From: Nautilus pompilius
Lineage: Eukaryota > Mollusca > Cephalopoda > Nautilida > Nautilidae
DNA: 64,000 nt
Assembly (NCBI GenBank): GCA_018389105.1
Contig: JACATO010001534.1
Span: forward strand, 10,001 to 74,000
Direction: 5' to 3'
Position 1 is the first letter of the stretch. Every line of letters starts with the position of its first letter. The notes under the pieces are model-generated. The model did no database searches. It saw nothing but the letters and a program-made list of their open reading frames with translations, and was not told the DNA's origin. Shown piece after piece: positions 21,850-42,000 of this stretch. Position numbers and translations under genes: made by a program.

Positions 21850-24800
21850 TATTATTGTTATTACAAATCCGAGAGTGCTGCCTGCTTCTGTAAAAAGGAG
21901 ATGCATGCCTACCAAAAACGCTGTTCAAATTCAAATGTGCACTGAAAATACTACTCAGCAACAGCATTGCGACGACCATGAATTCTTGCCTATGGCAAGT
22001 CAGCCCACTCACAGGCATGGTGTGTAGTCATCGGTAGCCTGATTATGTCATAGTCCCTCCAGGTCAGCTTACCCTGGTGTCGCAGGTCCCAGACAGCAGC
22101 ATGTTGCTCTGACACCAAAACAATGCACACTGCTGACGGTGACTAGAGGCTGGAAGTCATCCCGTCACTCTGGACAATGGGCCTGGCGGCAAAAGGCCAG
22201 GAGCCGAATCTTGGACTGTTACACATTGGACTGGTGTGGTTGGGCTGCGGTCCCATTGGCTGGCACCACTGGGAGTGGAGGCTAGAAAAACTGGATGGGG
22301 AGGACTTCATGGGACAGTATGGACGCACACGAGCGAACTGAGTGGTATACCTATATTATGGCCAGCTCAGCTAAGAAGAAAGTACGTAAGTATTCAGTTG
22401 AATATCTGAAGTATGGCTTTATCACCTTTCCACCTGATGAGAGACTGCTGCTGTGTTTACTTTGTGATCAGACTTTATGCAATGATTCCATGAAACCGGC
22501 AAAACTGGAGGTACATTTTCAATCCAAGCACAGGGAGCACGCTGATAAAGACCCGTCATATTTCTGGGATCTAAAGTCCGATCATGAGAACAAGATGCAG
22601 GCTCAGAAGACCATACTCTTGATGTTTAAGTCACAGACATCCATGCAAAATGCAGGACTGGTCGCTAGCTATGAAATGTCACTTCTCATCGCTAAGTGTG
22701 GAAATGCTCACACAATTGGCAAGGATTTAATCATACCCATGCTGCGTGTGTTCACAAAAACTGTACTGCAAAGATTGGATGATCCTGTGTCGATTATGCC
22801 TCTTAGCAACAACACCATCCAGCGCAGAATCAATGAGATGGCCTCAGATGTGGTGGATCAACTCATTTGTAAACTTCGACAAAGGCCTTTACGTCAGTTG
22901 GACGAGTCAACGGTGAGGGACAGTTAGAATATTCTTCTTGCCTACGTTCGTTACATAGAGGCAGCTAATTTCATTGAAGAGATGCTGTTCTGTCAGTCAT
23001 TTGAGACAACTACAACTGCACAGGAGATATACCAGCTGTTCATGAAGTATTTTAATGACCATGACATTCCCATTGCTAACATAGTCTCATGTGCTGCTGA
23101 TGGAGCACTGTCGATGATGGGGAAGAGGAATGGATTCCTCCAGTTATTGAAGAGAGACAACCCTGCTTTGATCTCTGTGCACTGCATCTTACATTGTGAG
23201 CATCTCATCGCCGAAAGTCTCTCCCCTGAGCTCGGTGTGATTATGACGGCGATCATCAAGGTAATCAACCACATTAAAGCCAACCTGAAAACAGAAAGAC
23301 TTTTCAAAGTGTTATGCAAAGATTCAGAGGATCAGTTTGTAAGGTTGCTTTCCCACACTCAAGTACGCTGGCTTTCAAAAGGACCTTGCCTGGAGCGATT
23401 TGTCGATCTTTATGACGCCATTTTCGAGTTTTTGTGGGGAACTCGAAATTATTGAACCATTGCATAGTGAAGATGTGATGGCTATGACTATCTCACAGAC
23501 ATTTTTGACAAACTGAATACTTTGACCTGCAATCTTCAAGGCACCAAAGACCATCATTGAGTCCAAGTGCAAGATTTTTGGCTTTGTGTCCAAGTTAGAA
23601 CTGTGGCAAGGAGATCTGGGCAGGAAGGATTTCACCAGTTTTAGCCATTTGCTGCCCTGTCCGATCACCAACTTTGTTTTGACAGTAATATGTGACCATG
23701 TTGCCTCACTGACCACTGAATTCAAGGCCTGGTTCACAAATTTGCAAGTGATGGAGTTTCCGGACTGGTTGACACAACCATTTTTCTGTCGACTTGATGA
23801 CATTGATAGGTGTTACCGAGATGAACTGGCAGAAATGCAGCACAATAACTCTGTGAAAGTCATTCATAAAACGAAGAAACTAATGATGTGGGTGACTGAT
23901 GAAGCTTCTGAGAACTATCCAGAGATGTCAAAAGCCGCAAGAAAGATGATGCTTCCTTTTCCAACATCCTATTTAGCAGAATGTGGATTCAGAGCTGTCA
24001 TGGACATTTTGACCAAGAAGCGAAATAGTTTGGACATTTGTGATTGGGGTGACCTACGACTGAAGCTGACTAAACTGGAACCACGTGTATCGTTTCTAGT
24101 CAGATGTCATCAAGTGCGGGGCTCTCATTGAATTAAATTCTAAGCAGTTATCCTCAAAACCCGACGTATATCAGTGTGTTAATAAAAGTTTTCAGCAAAC
24201 TATCCATCTCTTGTTTGCTGTGGGTGGGTGGGGTGATTCAGTTGTTTCTGGTGAGAGAAGGGATGCATGACAGATAAAAGGTTGGGAAACACTGGTCTAG
24301 GTACTTGTGCCATGAATCTTTTGCACTAATTGCCTTTCCTTTCTTCGGCCAATCATTGGTTAAAATAAAAGAAATGTTTAAGAGCACAAATCATCTGTAT
24401 GCAAACAAAAAAAAAAGGAGAGAGAGAGAAAGAAAAACAAAGATGATAGTAAAACAAAAAAAATAATAAAGCAGCAAATTATTTTAAAATGTTGAGACCA
24501 TTTAGAAAAATTGAAACTTTGTTTTTATGCTCGCTTAGTTTTTATTACTGAAGAACTCGGCCTTCTCTGGTTAAGAAGGCGTGACTACGGGGCATCCTGT
24601 CCCTAGCCTTCTATTTGGGGTACTGACCAGGTGCCACGCCCTTTTTGGGTGTGATCACTCAGATTCGGCCCTGGAGGGCAGGGGATAAGTAGTCTGTTTG
24701 GCCGTGCAGACGGAAAGTCCCCTGCTTGAAAAGAGTAGGGGCGAGGGATGCTTTTTGCACTTGGCCTGCTTCTCTGGCTGGGAAGGTTAGGCACGTCGGG

Positions 24801-26954
24801 ACCGATTTTTGGATCGGATGTGCCAAGGCTTTTTTTTCCTAAGAGGTTTTTGGCTGGGGAAGCGATTGCTCTAATGGAGTTTGCTCCGACTGAAGCTTTT
24901 GCTTCCATTAACATGGGACGCTTCAGCGTCCATAACTCTGGTTGTTTTTCAGCCAGCAGCACGAGGTGTTTCGGCGCCTCCACCCAGCAATTTTGGCCTT
25001 CATCAGGAGCTCGCTCCACCAGAGGTTTCTGCCATCTCCACTCCCTTCTCTTCAGAGATGCACACACATACACAAACTTTACACACACACACACACACAT
25101 TACAACACCAAAAAATAAAAAAAAGATCAAAGTGGAGTTCTGGGGTATTGGTGTTCCGAGTCTACCATTTGGGGTACCGAACAGGTGCTATGCCCTTTTT
25201 GAGCGTGGTCACCGGGAGTCAGCCTGGTGGGCAGAGGCGCCTGTGTGTTGAGTATCTCTGCTTACTGACAAGTCCTCTGCTTGCAAGAGTGGAGGTGAGG
25301 GAAACGTTTTGCCCTGGGCCCCAATATCTGGCAGGAAAGGTTAGGCATCTCCAGACCGATTTTCTGACTTGAGGTGCTGAGACTTTTTTTTCTCAAAGAG
25401 GTTTTTCGGCTGGGGAAATGATTGCTCTAATGGAGTTTTCACTCCATATCGGGGGCATTTTGCCTCCACAAAACAAGGCGCTTTGGCGCCTCAAAATGGG
25501 TTTCGGCCCGGGTTTTGGTCCCAATAACAAGGTGCTTCAGAACCTCAGGACAGGCTTTGGCCCTCAAACAGATCTTGCTTCACTAGAGGTTTTGACCTCA
25601 TCCAACCCTTTCTCTTTGGAGATATACACACAGACACAAACTTTACACTGCCTTACACATAGCAAACAACCAACAACAAAAAAAAAGATCAAAGCTTGCT
25701 TACTTTTTTGCTCTAGGAGTTAGAATTTTGATGGATTGGCATTGCTGATTTGGTAGGCCCCCAACTGGCTGGGGATGATGTGAATATCAGGTCTCCTAAC
25801 TATGGGAGTGATCATTTGCATGGTCTTCAACTTCAGGTTGGGGGCTACACTTTTTGCTGTAGCTGAAGTGCTACATGGGGGCTTTGCCTCACAGTGAAGC
25901 CTCTGCTCATTCTCCATACTGTTTCTGAAAGGAGTCATGCGCACACCCCAGAATGCACTTTAACATGTGCCCCACCACAAAAAAGAGAGAACTAAGTCTC
26001 AATTTTAATACACAATTTTTCTTGTTTGCATGTTCTTGACTTGCATTGTTTGATTGGTATTTTTCTGTAGGAGGAAGGTTTTGCAGTATGTTTACACACT
26101 GTTGGTGTTTGTTGTGCAGTATAGAGAGTACAAAAAACCACCCTGGCAGGAAGAGAGTTAAATTAACTGAGGCTCATTCAAGCTCCTAAACAGTGCCAGA
26201 ATGGTAGTCATTGTGTTAGTTATGCTATGCTGCTTGTGCTGACCCAGCTTAGGTGTTTCTTTTGAAATGAAATTACCTTTTCTGAAAATATCACTTAGAG
26301 ATATTAAATAGAAATAATTGTTTCTTTTTTTTTGTTTTGTTTTTGAGCACAGTCATTAATGAAATTGTACTATACAACAGGTGCAAGGTTTGTGTGGAAA
26401 GTTCAACTACAAGAAAAATGATGAATTCTTTGGACCTAATGGCGCCCCAGAGGGAGTAAAAACCTTTATTGGAATGTACAGGGATCAGTTATGCAACGAT
26501 AAAGAGAAAGAGATGGCTGGCATATGTGACAGTTTTTACTATGTAAGTAAAAAATTTGCCAATGGTATTACTTAGTTCTCTGTGTGTTGTGCCATTTTTC
26601 TGCTTTATTTTGTCATTTCTTGCATTCTTGAATATTATTATTATTGTTTTCTAGCTTAATAGATGAAAATGATGAATTAAAGAAAACAATCATGACCTTA
26701 AAATAGCCATGAAAAAGTGTTACAGAATTTAAGTGAATACGAGTTGATTTTACCCTTTGTGATGGTCATCATTAATTTTCTTTAAGCATATTTGCTCTAC
26801 AGCTGGAATACTGTGATAAACTGAGATAAAACAATTTATAGAATTGAATGCTGGAGCATACTGTCTTAATGTGAGAGTGAATAAGATGAGGACACATCTT
26901 TAAATTTTATAATTTAATTTAAACTCAGTAAAGCACTCTTGAAATTAATGAACA

Positions 26955-36000: not shown

Positions 36001-39000
36001 TAGCTATTAGTTGTTTTATTTGGGTTAATAAAATAGTAGTTTTCATAGTGAACTTTATTACCAGTGCAGCATTACGTTTTAAAAGTATTTTAATAAGGAA
36101 TTTCTTTAAGTTATCGTGAAAAAATTATGAAATTTACTTATTCTATTTAGCTACCTGTTGGGCATCTGGCGATCCTCACTATAGAACATTTGATGGAAAA
36201 CACTACACCTTTATGGGATCCTGCTCTTATATCCTCACAAAAGCTGTCAACAACGAATTTTCAATTAATGTTCAGAATGTAAAGTGTGGTAGCAGTGGAG
36301 CAACTTGTACCAAGACCATCATTATTATTGTGAAGAGAACAAAGATAAATCTTGTCCGTGGTGGCAGTGTGGTAATGGATGATAGGCCACTACCTACTGG
36401 CGAATACAAGTCTGCTGATCTCACAATCTACCAAGCTGGCATGTTCCTACACATAATCACTACATTTGGTCTCAGAGTACAATGGGATTTTGGTATGGCA
36501 TTACTATTATCATTTTAATATAGAATTTTAAAAATATATTACAAACTTAAATATTGATTTTTTTTTTATATTTTGTGGATGTATTGAGCAAATTATAAAA
36601 CTTTTTATTATTTAGATAAAACAATTTTTGCTGTAAACACTTTTCTACTTTTTATAGTTTGGTGAGGATTTGTCTGAATTTGACAATTATTCTTCCAAAT
36701 AGTACATTTTATTTGAAGAATGATCTGCTCTTCTAATTGAATGAAAATTTATCTGCTAAAATTTGTTTTTTGTTTGTTTTTTTTTTAACTATTCTGTTTA
36801 GTAGAAATATTAGTGTTGTTTGATGGGATGTCATGTGAGGCATTGCAAGATGCTACTTTCAGAAAAATTCTTGCAATATTCAAAATTTATCTTGGTTTAG
36901 GAACAAGAGTGTATGTCCATTTGAACAAGGACTGGAAGAACAAGGTGATAGGTTTATGTGGAAACAACAATGGAAATAGTGAGGATGACTATGTTGGACT
37001 TAATGGAATGATACATACTAAAGTGTCAGCATTTGGAAATAGCTGGAAAATCAAGTCCTTATGTGAAGAAATTCCACAAGATAGGCCGGGTGATAAACTT
37101 GATCCATGTGAGGTCTGTATAACTGATTTTGTTTGATATGACATAAACTGATATATTTAAATAAATTACTGGAAGGGAGGGGTGTTTTTTAGTTGTTAAA
37201 TGCTAATTGATGATGTTGTCAAAAATAAGTTTATAGTATTGCATGTGTTGTATGAAGATGATTACACCTGATCCTTGTGAAAATGGCTGCTATGCTCAAT
37301 ACCTCACTTAAAACTTAAGGTGCAGAGAATTCCATGCTGAAATATAGCTTATTATGCTTATTGAGATATCAGTTATCTTTCAAGCTTTGACTGTAGAATT
37401 TACTGCATGCACACAATTTATTAGATGTTACAATTATATAACCATCATAAAATTATTATTATTACAAATTTTTCCCTATAAAACAAAAAAATACTTAACC
37501 AAGTAACATATTAGATGGATTGCATAATGGTTAAAATTACTTCATTTCTTAGCCTAACCCACACTGTAAATAAGTCAGCAAAAATGATATTCACAACTTA
37601 GCTTGAAAAAGACAGATGGAAGGACTTTTCTTATGTATTCACTGATATAAATCTTATTCTAGATATTTCTGAATCATAACACTGGTCAACAAGTATTTTT
37701 CATCAAGCATATGTCAAGGTGTAGTTAGTGTGGTTTTTAATGCTGATTTCAAATATACAATTAGTTTTTTGACATCACATACAGTTTTCAAGATGAGAAA
37801 GTTTCTCGGTTTTAACTCATGCATTATATAGAAATTCCAATTAATGACGTGTATGCATGTATTTCATTTACATGATGGAGACACACCTTTAAAATAAACT
37901 ACATTATTCATTGCTGCATAGTTCAGATGCAATATTTCATCATCTTAAATTAACCAATCAAGTTTTGTCTGATGAAATAGGTATTTCAACATCTCAAATT
38001 GTCCAATCATAATTGGTCTGATGTTAATGGGAATGCAGGCAGGTTTCACAAAATACTGTTGTTTCTTGTGTCTATGGGATAGTCAGGCAACTAACAGACA
38101 TTATTCGGAATCAAACTGGCAGACAAGAACATCATACCAGCCAGAACTGTCTAGCGTCAAGAATACAAGAATACAATCATGTTTTGTCTGATGAAATAGG
38201 TATTTCAACATCTCAAATTGTCCAGTCATAATTGGTCTGATGTTAATGGGAATGCAGGCAGGTTTCACAAAATACTGTTGTTTCTTGTGTCTATGGGATA
38301 GTCGGGCAACTAACAGACATTATTCGGAATCAAACTGGCAGACAAGAACATCATACCAGCCAGAACTGTCTAGCGTCAAGAATACACCTCTTGTAGATCC
38401 ATGTAATGTCCTATTGCCTCCTTTGCACATAAAGCTTGGACTGATGAAACAGTTTGTAAAGACACTAGGGAAGAGAAATGCCAGAGGGTTTGAGTATATT
38501 GTAGAAAAGTTTCCCAAAATGACACAAGCGAAGTTGAAAGAGGGTATCTTTGTCGGACCCCAAATTAGAGAAGTACTCAAACATGTTAACTTCAAGACAA
38601 CACTGGGTGAACTGGAACTGCCTGCCTGGAATGCTTTCAATTGGATCTGTGAGAATTTCTTGGGCAACAAGAAGGCAATGGACTACAAGGATGGCATCAA
38701 GAATCTTCTGAAATGTTACTCAGCAATGGGTTGTCGCATGTCACTGAAAGTTCACTTCTTGGACTCCCATCTGGATTTCTTCGCAGATAACCTTGGAGCA
38801 GTGCCTGATGAACACGGTGAAAGATTTCCCCAGGACATTAGTGTTATGGAGAAACAGTGCCAAGGCTTCTGGAATGACAGTATGCTGGCTGACTACTGCT
38901 GGACACTTTACCGTGATCAACCAGATCAGGAACACCACAGGAAATCCAAATCACAATGTTTCTAACTCTGTTGTTCTAACTTTGTCTGTTTTGTCTGACC

Positions 39001-42000
39001 CTTTTTTTGTGTGTTCACTCTTTGTAGAATGATAGTGATGATTTTTAACTCAATAAACTCATTTACTTTCTAAAAATAATATGCCCTTATTTATTATGTT
39101 AATGATTTCATATATACAAATATGTAAATATTTGCATGTATCTACTGAAAAACTGATACGTGCTGCATACAAATGGAGTGAAATTTTGAAATCAGCATGA
39201 AAAATTAGTCTAAAAAAGTTGGTTTGCATTCATAATGAGTATAATACATTTAATTTTGTTGACCAGTGTAATTAGATTTTAAGTATGTAATTGGTGGGCT
39301 AATTTATTTCATCATACCAATACATGGAGTTGTGAATGTTTTTTTAATTTTATTGAATTTTATTTGATCAAATGAAAATGTTTGGTTTGTTAACCCAATA
39401 CACCTTTTACAGGGTAGCAAGCGGAAGTTATGGGCAGAAGAATCTTGCAAAATTATCAATGGTCCATTGTTTAAAAAATGTCGTGATGAACTCCAAGGAG
39501 TGGCGGAAGACTATTACCAGGATTGTTTAACAGATGCATGTGGGCAAGTAAACAATTTTATTATCCAGTAGTAAGGTTGTATCATTCTTACTGTAAAAAT
39601 GACATGGTATACTTCACAGTATTGCTTATCTGTTATGAGATGTGACTCTGTTTATGAGGCAAGACTTTGAATTGACCATTGGTTTTTGAGAAATTGTAGG
39701 CTATTTGATTGGCTTCTTTAAATAAATGTTAGAAGATTATTGTGAGTGTATTTGCAAGTTGAATAACATTTTAATGAGCTTAATAATTAAATCTGACTAC
39801 CATGCATTGTGATAGTTGGCAGACTTATTTGTTGGAAATACTTAGTCTTTTTAAAAATAATAATGAAATTGTAATTGTGAAATCTTCTCCTAGTTTTAAC
39901 ATTTTAGCATATCTCTTGTATTTTTTGAAACTGAATGCAAGAACTATATCTGATTAAATATAAAGAATTCTTTGTTATGATATTTCTAGCATAATTTCCG
40001 TTTCATCAGAATACAAGTATAGCATTACAATATTATTAAAGACTTGTACATTTATTTTTGATATTTGTATTAAATCTATTTAACTTTATTTTTGTTGTAG
40101 ATGTGATATGGGTGGAGATTGTGAATGTTTGTGTACAGCTATTGCAAACTTTGTTGAAGAATGTAACAAACATGGTGTTCCTGTCAGGTGGAGACATCAG
40201 CGACTTTGCCGTAAGCTTTGCAAGCTTCCTGGCCAACTTAATTCTTATTTATATTCTGTTGATATTTAGTATGTGATTTTAAAAGAAATATAAATAAAAT
40301 TAATCAGTCTGGTATATGCTCAGAAAACAAGTAAGGAAGTGGAATCAAGCAAAGGTCTTCTCAATTTGCTTCTGTTTTAAAGGTTGTTGGTAAGATGTTT
40401 ATTCATTTAAATTGCACATCATTAATTTATTTATGAAAAGACACTTAAATAAATTTATTTGAGGTCAGAAGGTAAGAATTTATTATGTATATTCTTATGC
40501 AATTTGTAAATTCATATTATAAAAATGGTTTTGCCTTATTTGTGCAGCATGACAATTCTGGTGCAAAGAAAGGAATAACAATTTTCCCAAGCTACATTCC
40601 ATAATCTGTAAACAAAATCTGACCCAAATTGATTTTAAAGGTTATAAATTTGACTTAAGATTCTTTATAAAAGCAGTAAATAATTAGGAATATATTTTTT
40701 CTTAATTATTGTATAAATGTTAAACTCATGTTTAACTAAAACAAGACAATGATTACTGGTAACTATTCTGTTGTCTTATATGTATGGTTACATACTCTTC
40801 AACTATATCTGCTTTACATGCTTTTATTATTAGTATAGCAATACCACTGTTTTTATTTGTAGCCATCCAGTGTGAGAACAATTTCCAGTATGTGGCCTGT
40901 GGTCCTCCATGTCCTGCTACTTGCCGTAATGTGGGAGATGAACCAGAATCATATTGTAAATCTTCTCACTGTGTTGAAGGATGTTTTTGCCCATCAGGAT
41001 ATGTGCAGGATGGTAAGAAGTGCTCTGAACTTTGGCTTTACTAAACACCAAAAATAAATACTTCAAGTAAATACTGTGTGATATTCACTAATAGCTCATA
41101 TACTGTTAAGAATATTAATAGTTATAAATTATATAAATAGATTAATAATTCTCACAACTGTTCTTTTTATGGTTCTATTTAGAATTATTAATTTAAAGAG
41201 TGAGTTTATCTACTGTATGTGTTCTACATTGTTGTGTTAACAAAATCAAAAATGTTTTGGTAATATATCTACTGAAAATTGAGAATAATATCCAAAATAT
41301 TTAAAAATCTTTTTGAAACTGAATTTTAGGACTGATCTGATTTGTTATGCTAATTATCTTCACCAGTAAAGCATTTTGCAATGAATCACTAAGAATGGAG
41401 TACATAATATGAAACTCAAATTTCTATTGTTTAAAGACTTTAAGGATAGGCAGACATTAATCATTCATTTTTAATCAGGTTTTAACAGCTAAATATTATG
41501 AGAAAGTATGTGTTTACATGTAATTGCATGTATTTGTACGAGGGAAAATCAAAATTTATCCGCTGGCACCCATTTCGCACATTCTTTATGGAAGCCGAGC
41601 TTGTCATGGATGATTTGATAGGCAGAACCATGACTAATCTGCAGAGAACATGCTACCTCATCGATGATAACTCGCTGGTTCGCCATTACCATTGCTTGAG
41701 CTTGCTGAATCTTCTCGTCAGTGGTGGAGGTTGACAGGCGTCCTGCTGCTCCTCCTCGCGTCACGCTTGTCCGGCCACTTTTAAATGTCTCGATCCACTC
41801 ATACACACTTCTACGCGGTAGTGCACTTTCGCCGTATTGTGTCAAAAGCCTCCGATGAATTTCAGCCCTTGACACACCTTCCGACCAGAGAAATCGGATC
41901 ACTGCTCTTTGTTCCTCCTTGGTGCACACTGCTAGTGGAGCAGCCATGTTTACACTGTAACAGCAGCAAGAAAACTGGCACGATCAAGCTCAAACTTTGA

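Follow-up and report, generated by a model that had tools for sequence, protein, structure and literature searches.

U2 small nuclear RNA genes as a possible stacking platform for SINE-like modules in Nautilus pompilius

Introduction

A stretch of 64,000 nucleotides from the cephalopod Nautilus pompilius (assembly GCA_018389105.1, contig JACATO010001534.1, positions 10,001 to 74,000 of the forward strand; hereafter the window, in whose own numbering all positions are given) contains a crowded cluster of short hairpins. What is this cluster, and how did so many hairpins come to lie side by side? We found that it is one copy of a dispersed repeat family, built of modules that resemble short interspersed elements (SINEs) and that carry pieces of U2 small nuclear RNA (snRNA) at both ends. 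We propose that the cluster is a retroposed composite of three such modules: SINEs would have inserted at the U2 target of a long interspersed element (LINE), stacked there, been transcribed from the U2 promoter and been retroposed as composites. To this reading, taken as a whole, we assign a probability of about two in three.

Results

Organization of the hairpin cluster

The cluster consists of three head-to-tail units of the dispersed repeat, A (24556-25134), B (25135-25694) and C (25695-25985), whose parts are listed in Table 1. Stretches of 53-131 bases are repeated 554-564 bases downstream with 70-81% identity. All twelve hairpins named in the initial annotation of this DNA are readable, those at 24938 and 24963 each with one G-T pair, and a script recovers perfect stems of length at least 5 at 24802, 24892, 24916, 25430, 25476, 25586 and 25858, plus three others. 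The array is dense, as had been described, with nine perfect hairpins (stem of at least 5, at least 3 G/C) in the 1391 bases from 24501, against a mean of 1.1 (standard deviation 1.4) for stretches of 1391 bases taken at a step of 700 across the window, the counts not being GC-adjusted. The contrast in GC content with the surrounding intron holds downstream (0.47 vs 0.31) and fails upstream, where 2 kb are equally GC-rich (0.43-0.47). The hairpins are real but do not form one single structure, as they are distributed over two units about 70% identical, 554-564 bases apart, and a shorter third.

A protein-coding nature was rejected, as the three open reading frames (ORFs) spanning the hairpin region had no Pfam match, nor had any of the seven ORFs scanned. 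A tRNA-derived head was rejected because a tRNA gene search of the window found none. A known RNA family was rejected as well, no Rfam match being above threshold: a search over 2400 bases returned only a sub-threshold 28-base match (17.6 bits, E 0.1), and U2 failed to reach E 5 in the window.

Table 1. Parts of the composite in the window
Feature	Position	Strand	Remarks
U2 snRNA-derived head of unit A	24556-24579	+	U2 nucleotide (nt) 8 to ~26; fits variant U2 gene L031, including an extra CT
Body of unit A	24580-25109	+	SINE module of ~560 bases, with longer stems in its 5' half
Nine short hairpins of unit A	24876-25058	+	GGAG-TTTG-CTCC to TCTC-TTCA-GAGA
A-rich tail and U2 linker of unit A	25110-25134	+	Tail 25110-25124; linker GATCAAAGTG 25125-25134, U2 from nt 25
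Body of unit B	25135-25677	+	Sister module, ~70% identical to A
Hairpin array of unit B	25430-25622	+
A tail and U2 linker of unit B	25678-25694	+	Tail 25678-25686; linker GATCAAAG 25687-25694
Unit C	25695-25985	+	Shorter module, terminating in CCACCACAAAAAAG
Possible 6-base target-site duplication AGAACT	25988-25993		Other copy 24552-24557, 2-base overlap with the head; by eye, chance level not assessed

A dispersed, multicopy family

Further copies of the cluster exist elsewhere. When window 24560-25950 was used as query against the species' own genome (728 Mb, 2558 contigs), 40 of the 1326 first-look candidates were scored and all 40 were significant, for a total of 58 matches including the window. 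Twenty loci (collected loci are numbered with the prefix L) were taken with their flanks for unit typing. The arrangements include single A units (L018, L020, L024 and others), A then B (L009-L014, L016), A then A (L017) and longer strings, and the best long matches are 74-84% identical between A units, 72-83% between B units and ~65-71% between A and B. The module labels C, D and E, as well as several LINE-like assignments, were given by reading and are not a formal classification.

The units are about 560 bases long, dispersed and multicopy, end in A-rich tails and match no Pfam family. We call the element SINE-like because it is a multicopy retroposon that has an A tail, a head derived from U2 snRNA and no recognised coding sequence; the earlier remark that it does not look like a known SINE was mistaken in kind. 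Moreover, copies differ from one another by entire modules with A tails and U2 linkers, which led us to reject bead-by-bead growth through hairpin-templated copying, another suggestion of the initial annotation.

U2 snRNA heads and linkers

Complete A units have a 5' end like GCTTCTCGGCCTTCTCTGGCTAAG, and between successive units lie an A-rich tail and then GATCAAAGTG. The canonical U2 gene of this genome (L029) reads ATCGCTTCTCGGCCTTTTGGCTAAGATCAAAGTGTAG, a variant gene (L031) shares the extra CT with the A head, and the linker GATCAAAGTG is the continuation of these U2 genes from nt 25. When the first 50 bases were compared with the species' own U2, none of 2000 shuffles scored as high as A and 7 of 2000 scored as high as B; a G was prefixed to the A consensus, as the copies show, and without it the score would be 29 vs a shuffled maximum of 25. 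Alignment of whole units to U2 is much weaker (7 of 2000 shuffles as good for A, 99 of 2000 for B). The heads of L020, L025 and L094 are identical to the variant gene L031 over 21 bases, extra CT included.

The linker is greatly in excess in the genome: the 16-mer AAAAAAGATCAAAGTG has 131 matches vs 4 for its reversed control (window 25119-25134 is among the 100 places listed), and the combination of AACACCAC, a gap and GATCAAAGTG has 27 matches vs 1. Nineteen of these 27 were taken for junction reading; of the eight others, four lie in loci already collected, three are without an A-rich linker and one (on C1094) was not re-examined. Read by eye, the modules that follow the linker at the 19 junctions are B-, C-, D-, E- or A-like, or unassigned, and the upstream tail of L066 is LINE-like. 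Twenty further loci of the 131 (21 junctions) display a similar variety together with LINE-like ends and U2 continuations, four being without a recognisable element.

U2 sequence is continuous with modules at several loci. In L103, U2 nt 19-37 runs directly into module D; L105 consists of a U2 head, (A)n, GATCAAAGTGTAG, module D and then C; L022 of a head, GATCAAAGTG and another module; and L013 of U2 1-25, a LINE-like 3' end and then A, B and C units. Heads were searched in the collected loci with up to 4 errors allowed. Among 19 dispersed heads, 8 keep at least 4 of the 5 bases ATCGC at U2 +1 to +5, where a rough estimate gives ~0.3 expected, and the window copy, whose start is nt 8, keeps none of the five. 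Over the 20 bases before dispersed heads, 5-10 positions match the L031 promoter, compared with 12-16 for other variant U2 genes and 10 for the canonical gene; since the canonical gene itself scores 10, this upstream comparison is valid only for the variant promoter.

Two loci also contain U6 snRNA. At L055 (13-119, minus strand), a full-length inverted U6 (98.8 bits) immediately precedes a SINE that starts with its U2 head; U6 and SINE together are flanked on both sides by the 11 bases AGTTCAATTGT, as judged by eye. This arrangement is likely due to a template switch of the reverse transcriptase. At L056 (634-679, minus strand), a U2 head is followed by an incomplete U6, whose 23.9 bits do not reach the family cut-off, and then by a SINE whose front part is A-like and whose rear part is B-like.

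A LINE and other interruptions in U2 genes

An Rfam search of the genome for U2 gave 20 matches, 19 of them above the cut-off. Read by eye at nt 24/25, three of the 20 are uninterrupted; in ten, the first 24 nt are replaced by a run of pure A that abuts GATCAAAG; two, L037 and L038, show a similar run that is A-rich rather than pure; and five are otherwise damaged. The 25-mer (A)6GATCAAAGTGTAGTATCTG occurs at 37 places in the genome vs 0 for the control, which is not a count of interrupted genes because some of these places have only 24 to ~31 bases of U2 (L088, L091, L092). The uninterrupted sequence GGCTAAGATCAAAGTGTAGTATCTG is exact in three of six matches (up to 2 mismatches allowed); only three exact target sites thus stand against the ten matches with an A run, in an assembly that may be incomplete.

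A LINE was found at this site. In L050 (C437, 1-10000), it is flanked by two U2 bodies and has open frames 391 and 1193 amino acids (aa) long, the longer of which (ORF2) has Exo_endo_phos (7.8e-11) and RVT_1 (2.3e-33) domains, and it ends in (A)n followed by GATCAAAG. The sequence preceding the other U2 body resembles, by eye, an inverted piece of the 3' untranslated region (UTR) of the LINE. At L060-L063 and L104, the U2 genes still have their 5' end and a conserved promoter region, and the interruption comes after about nt 28-43; the interrupting sequences are taken for putative LINE 5' ends. In L091 and L092, an A tail is separated from the element that follows by ~24 bases of U2. The 3' junctions of LINE and SINE alike lie before U2 nt 25.

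The tail of A resembles the LINE-like tail of L090 (0 of 500 shuffles as good), whereas the likeness of B to L090 (6 of 500) and that of A to L098 (22 of 500) are only suggestive. An origin of the SINE body from LINE 3' UTRs was rejected, as local scores were no better than those of shuffles in four of four pairs.

Folding and paired changes of the hairpins

The suggestion of an RNA made of bead-like hairpins gains support from unit A. Compared with dinucleotide-shuffled controls, 24545-25134 folds with z = -4.0 on the plus strand (0 of 100 shuffles as good) and -0.94 on the minus strand (17 of 100). In a second folding of the window units (25 shuffles each, other unit boundaries), z on the plus and minus strands was -4.5 and -2.3 for A, -2.3 and -1.9 for B, and -2.8 and -2.2 for C; given that the values of B and C are similar on both strands, these two units are hardly strand-specific. 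Two control stretches of the window gave z between -0.9 and 0.3. The A consensus folds far beyond single copies (z -10.9 on the plus strand, -4.7 on the minus strand). LINE 3' ends were rejected as equally structured RNA, their plus-strand z of -1.3 (L050) and -3.7 (L049) being weaker than that of the A consensus.

Paired changes were counted in an A-only alignment (A2) of 23 of the 25 A-type bead stretches, from which L059 and the second L017 stretch were omitted; a mixed alignment of A and B (A1) was set aside as too gappy. Under the nine-hairpin structure of 47 pairs, 89.1% of cells are paired and in 30 cells both partners are changed (11.6 on average in shuffles, none of 500 reaching 30), a significance that the shuffles overstate here and in the counts below because these same sequences gave the structure and their subfamilies are related. 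Pairs with such double changes number 13 (shuffled 8.4; 9 of 500 as high) and further pair types 42 (39.2; 51 of 500). As the alignment of the first hairpin is doubtful in at least four rows (L009, L014, L017, L058), a recount was made without it, which gave 89.0% paired cells and 21 double-changed cells (shuffled 9.7; 0 of 500). With partners slid by 1-3 columns, 38-49% of cells are paired and 4-11 are double-changed. In the fourth hairpin, UA is changed to AU in five copies and CG to UA in four.

Given the plus-strand folding of unit A and the paired stem changes in the 23 copies, which fall mostly in one hairpin, the beads were probably a real RNA structure. Moreover, since single copies fold worse than the consensus, this structure was probably a property of the source elements that is now decaying in the dispersed copies.

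Discussion

Proposed origin of the composite

The source modules would be non-autonomous retroelements inserted by LINE machinery between U2 nt 24 and 25 (GGCTAA^GATCAAAG), and the identical junctions point to a LINE like that of L050. Because the linkers repeat the U2 target, modules may then have been stacked successively at one U2 site, each adding an A tail and leaving a GATCAAAGTG(TAG...) linker. The U2 promoter would transcribe the interrupted gene from U2 +1, as the starts of the heads suggest, to yield a predicted RNA of the form U2 head - module - (A)n - U2 linker - module - (A)n. Since the dispersed copies lack a U2 promoter, this composite RNA would have been retroposed elsewhere through target-primed reverse transcription by the LINE, and the copy in the window would be one such product. 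L055 is a case in point for this last step, where a candidate target-site duplication (11 bases, by eye) surrounds both the inverted U6 and the head-bearing SINE. The hairpins would represent the body of the module RNA in its folded form, which selection would have maintained as long as the sources were active; that they formed a compact, stable body for ribonucleoprotein (RNP) binding seems to us the most likely role, although this is a guess that we hold weakly. We lean slightly towards the broader view that U2 genes were a stacking platform, in which SINE and LINE modules lined up at a new site (nt 24/25), to be transcribed from the U2 promoter into RNAs of several modules and dispersed as composites.

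Several observations weigh against this origin. Among the fetched junctions and head matches examined, none placed a SINE module within an actual U2 gene: none of the 19 tail-linker junctions continues as U2 past ~16 bases, and none of the 15 head matches examined (of 16) combines a U2 promoter with a SINE body. A search of head-bearing copies for target-site duplications gave nothing convincing. The similarity between SINE and LINE tails is clear for one of 15 pairs, 49 or more of 500 shuffles being as good for 12 of the 15. As for the structure, the B consensus is nearly as stable on the minus strand (z -5.0 vs -5.6 on the plus strand); without the first hairpin of A, the pairs with double changes (10; shuffled 6.9, 37 of 500) and the further pair types (38; 34.8, 32 of 500) are weakly above chance, and 15 of the 21 double-changed cells fall in one hairpin, the fourth. 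Finally, the modules may have been stacked in situ, at dispersed sites.

According to this last scenario, single U2-flanked modules dispersed first and later modules were inserted at their (A)nGATCAAAG 3' ends, outside U2 genes. Dispersed copies do offer the target, as all or part of (A)nGATCAAAG is present at certain free 3' ends (L010, L027); the variety of modules after an identical linker and the lack of a SINE in a U2 gene fit as well. However, A and B are about equally diverged in eight A-B pairs (A 8.3-12.0%, B 6.0-12.7%, measured against consensus sequences built from sets that include these copies, B from only nine), and L013 begins at U2 +1 with a LINE-like 3' end before its A, B and C units. 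We consider stacking in situ unlikely.

Still less probable, in our judgement, is that the head was supplied by a template jump to U2 RNA, with no need for insertion into U2 genes. Jumps to snRNA seem to be present in this genome, as illustrated by the U6 sequences of L055 and L056, and jumps of R2 to U12 have been published (PMC3414825). Such a jump leaves unexplained, however, why heads end where U2 genes are interrupted and why the remaining U2 reappears after the A tail. Lastly, an ordinary diverged tandem repeat or SINE, in which the U2 likeness of the short head and linker would be due to chance, fits the modest whole-unit alignment to U2 but is very hard to reconcile with the shuffles of the first 50 bases, the linker count (131 vs 4), the continuous U2-module junctions and the U2 genes interrupted at nt 24/25.

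Relation to known elements

SINEs usually carry their own RNA polymerase III (Pol III) promoter, derived from tRNA, 7SL or 5S RNA; Alu, for example, is a dimeric SINE of two related arms with an A-rich linker, a 7SL head and a Pol III promoter. The composite likewise has related arms connected by an A-rich linker, whereas its head and linkers are U2 and its modules can number more than two. SINEs with U1 or U2 snRNA-derived heads, named SINEU, were reportedly defined by Kojima in 2015. Such elements are described in passages of PMC5753468 and PMC8010984, the latter attributing them to avian and crocodilian genomes. Like the SINEU of these passages, our element is a retroposon that does not code for protein and whose 5' end comes from U2 (none of 2000 shuffles equals the score of the first 50 bases of A); it differs in that U2 also follows the A tail, the head stops at a LINE insertion site, stacked modules are linked by U2 and the body is a hairpin array.

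LINEs that target U2 genes, sometimes in tandem, are known as Keno and Utopia; according to PMC4640811, Keno has an apurinic/apyrimidinic (AP)-type endonuclease, the 3' junction of Phytophthora Utopia is U2 nt 39, and Utopia and Keno have identical 3' flanks. The LINE of L050 also has an AP-type endonuclease domain and is in this respect, as a single LINE, Keno-like, the endonuclease of Utopia being restriction-like. Its 3' junction is at nt 25 and not at the published nt 39, and it therefore uses a different U2 site. The R2 SIDEs are a further parallel: as presented in sections of PMC3414825, these non-autonomous elements reside in the multicopy 28S gene, are co-transcribed with it and moved by the resident LINE, and their 5' end is freed by a ribozyme. 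We propose the same for our modules as regards co-transcription with a multicopy RNA gene, mobilisation by a LINE and template jumps to snRNA. The target is U2 instead of 28S, however, the U2 5' end is retained where R2 SIDEs rely on ribozyme release, and the stacking of different modules is a feature of the U2 composites that we did not find for R2 SIDEs in those sections. No description of this U2-linked composite was found in the literature searched, which did not cover the SINEU paper of 2015.

If the proposed origin is true, it amounts to a SINE strategy without a promoter of its own, in which an snRNA gene is target, promoter and linker at once. This would be another route to transcription for a non-autonomous element and would explain how multi-module retroposons originate. 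It would also add an insertion site in U2 (nt 24/25) to that reported for Keno and Utopia, prompt the question of how a sufficient supply of functional U2 is maintained in the host, and make the hairpin array a test case for selection on SINE RNA structure.

Other features of the window

By eye, the plus strand between 9000 and 46400 carries exon-like pieces of a large VWD/TIL/LDLa protein of the SCO-spondin or hemolectin type. Such pieces flank the composite on both sides (e.g., 26363-26575), and its location within an intron is plausible from the sequence. A nearly perfect tandem duplication of 219 bases (98% matches) at 37955-38386 lies at the start of a 256-aa ORF without a Pfam match. Beside the composite, at 22286-24131 on the plus strand, three ORFs without a Pfam match resemble what we take to be a broken transposase of the hAT/ZBED type, and an ORF at 41549-41983 on the minus strand resembles what we assume to be the N-terminal part of a mariner-type transposase.

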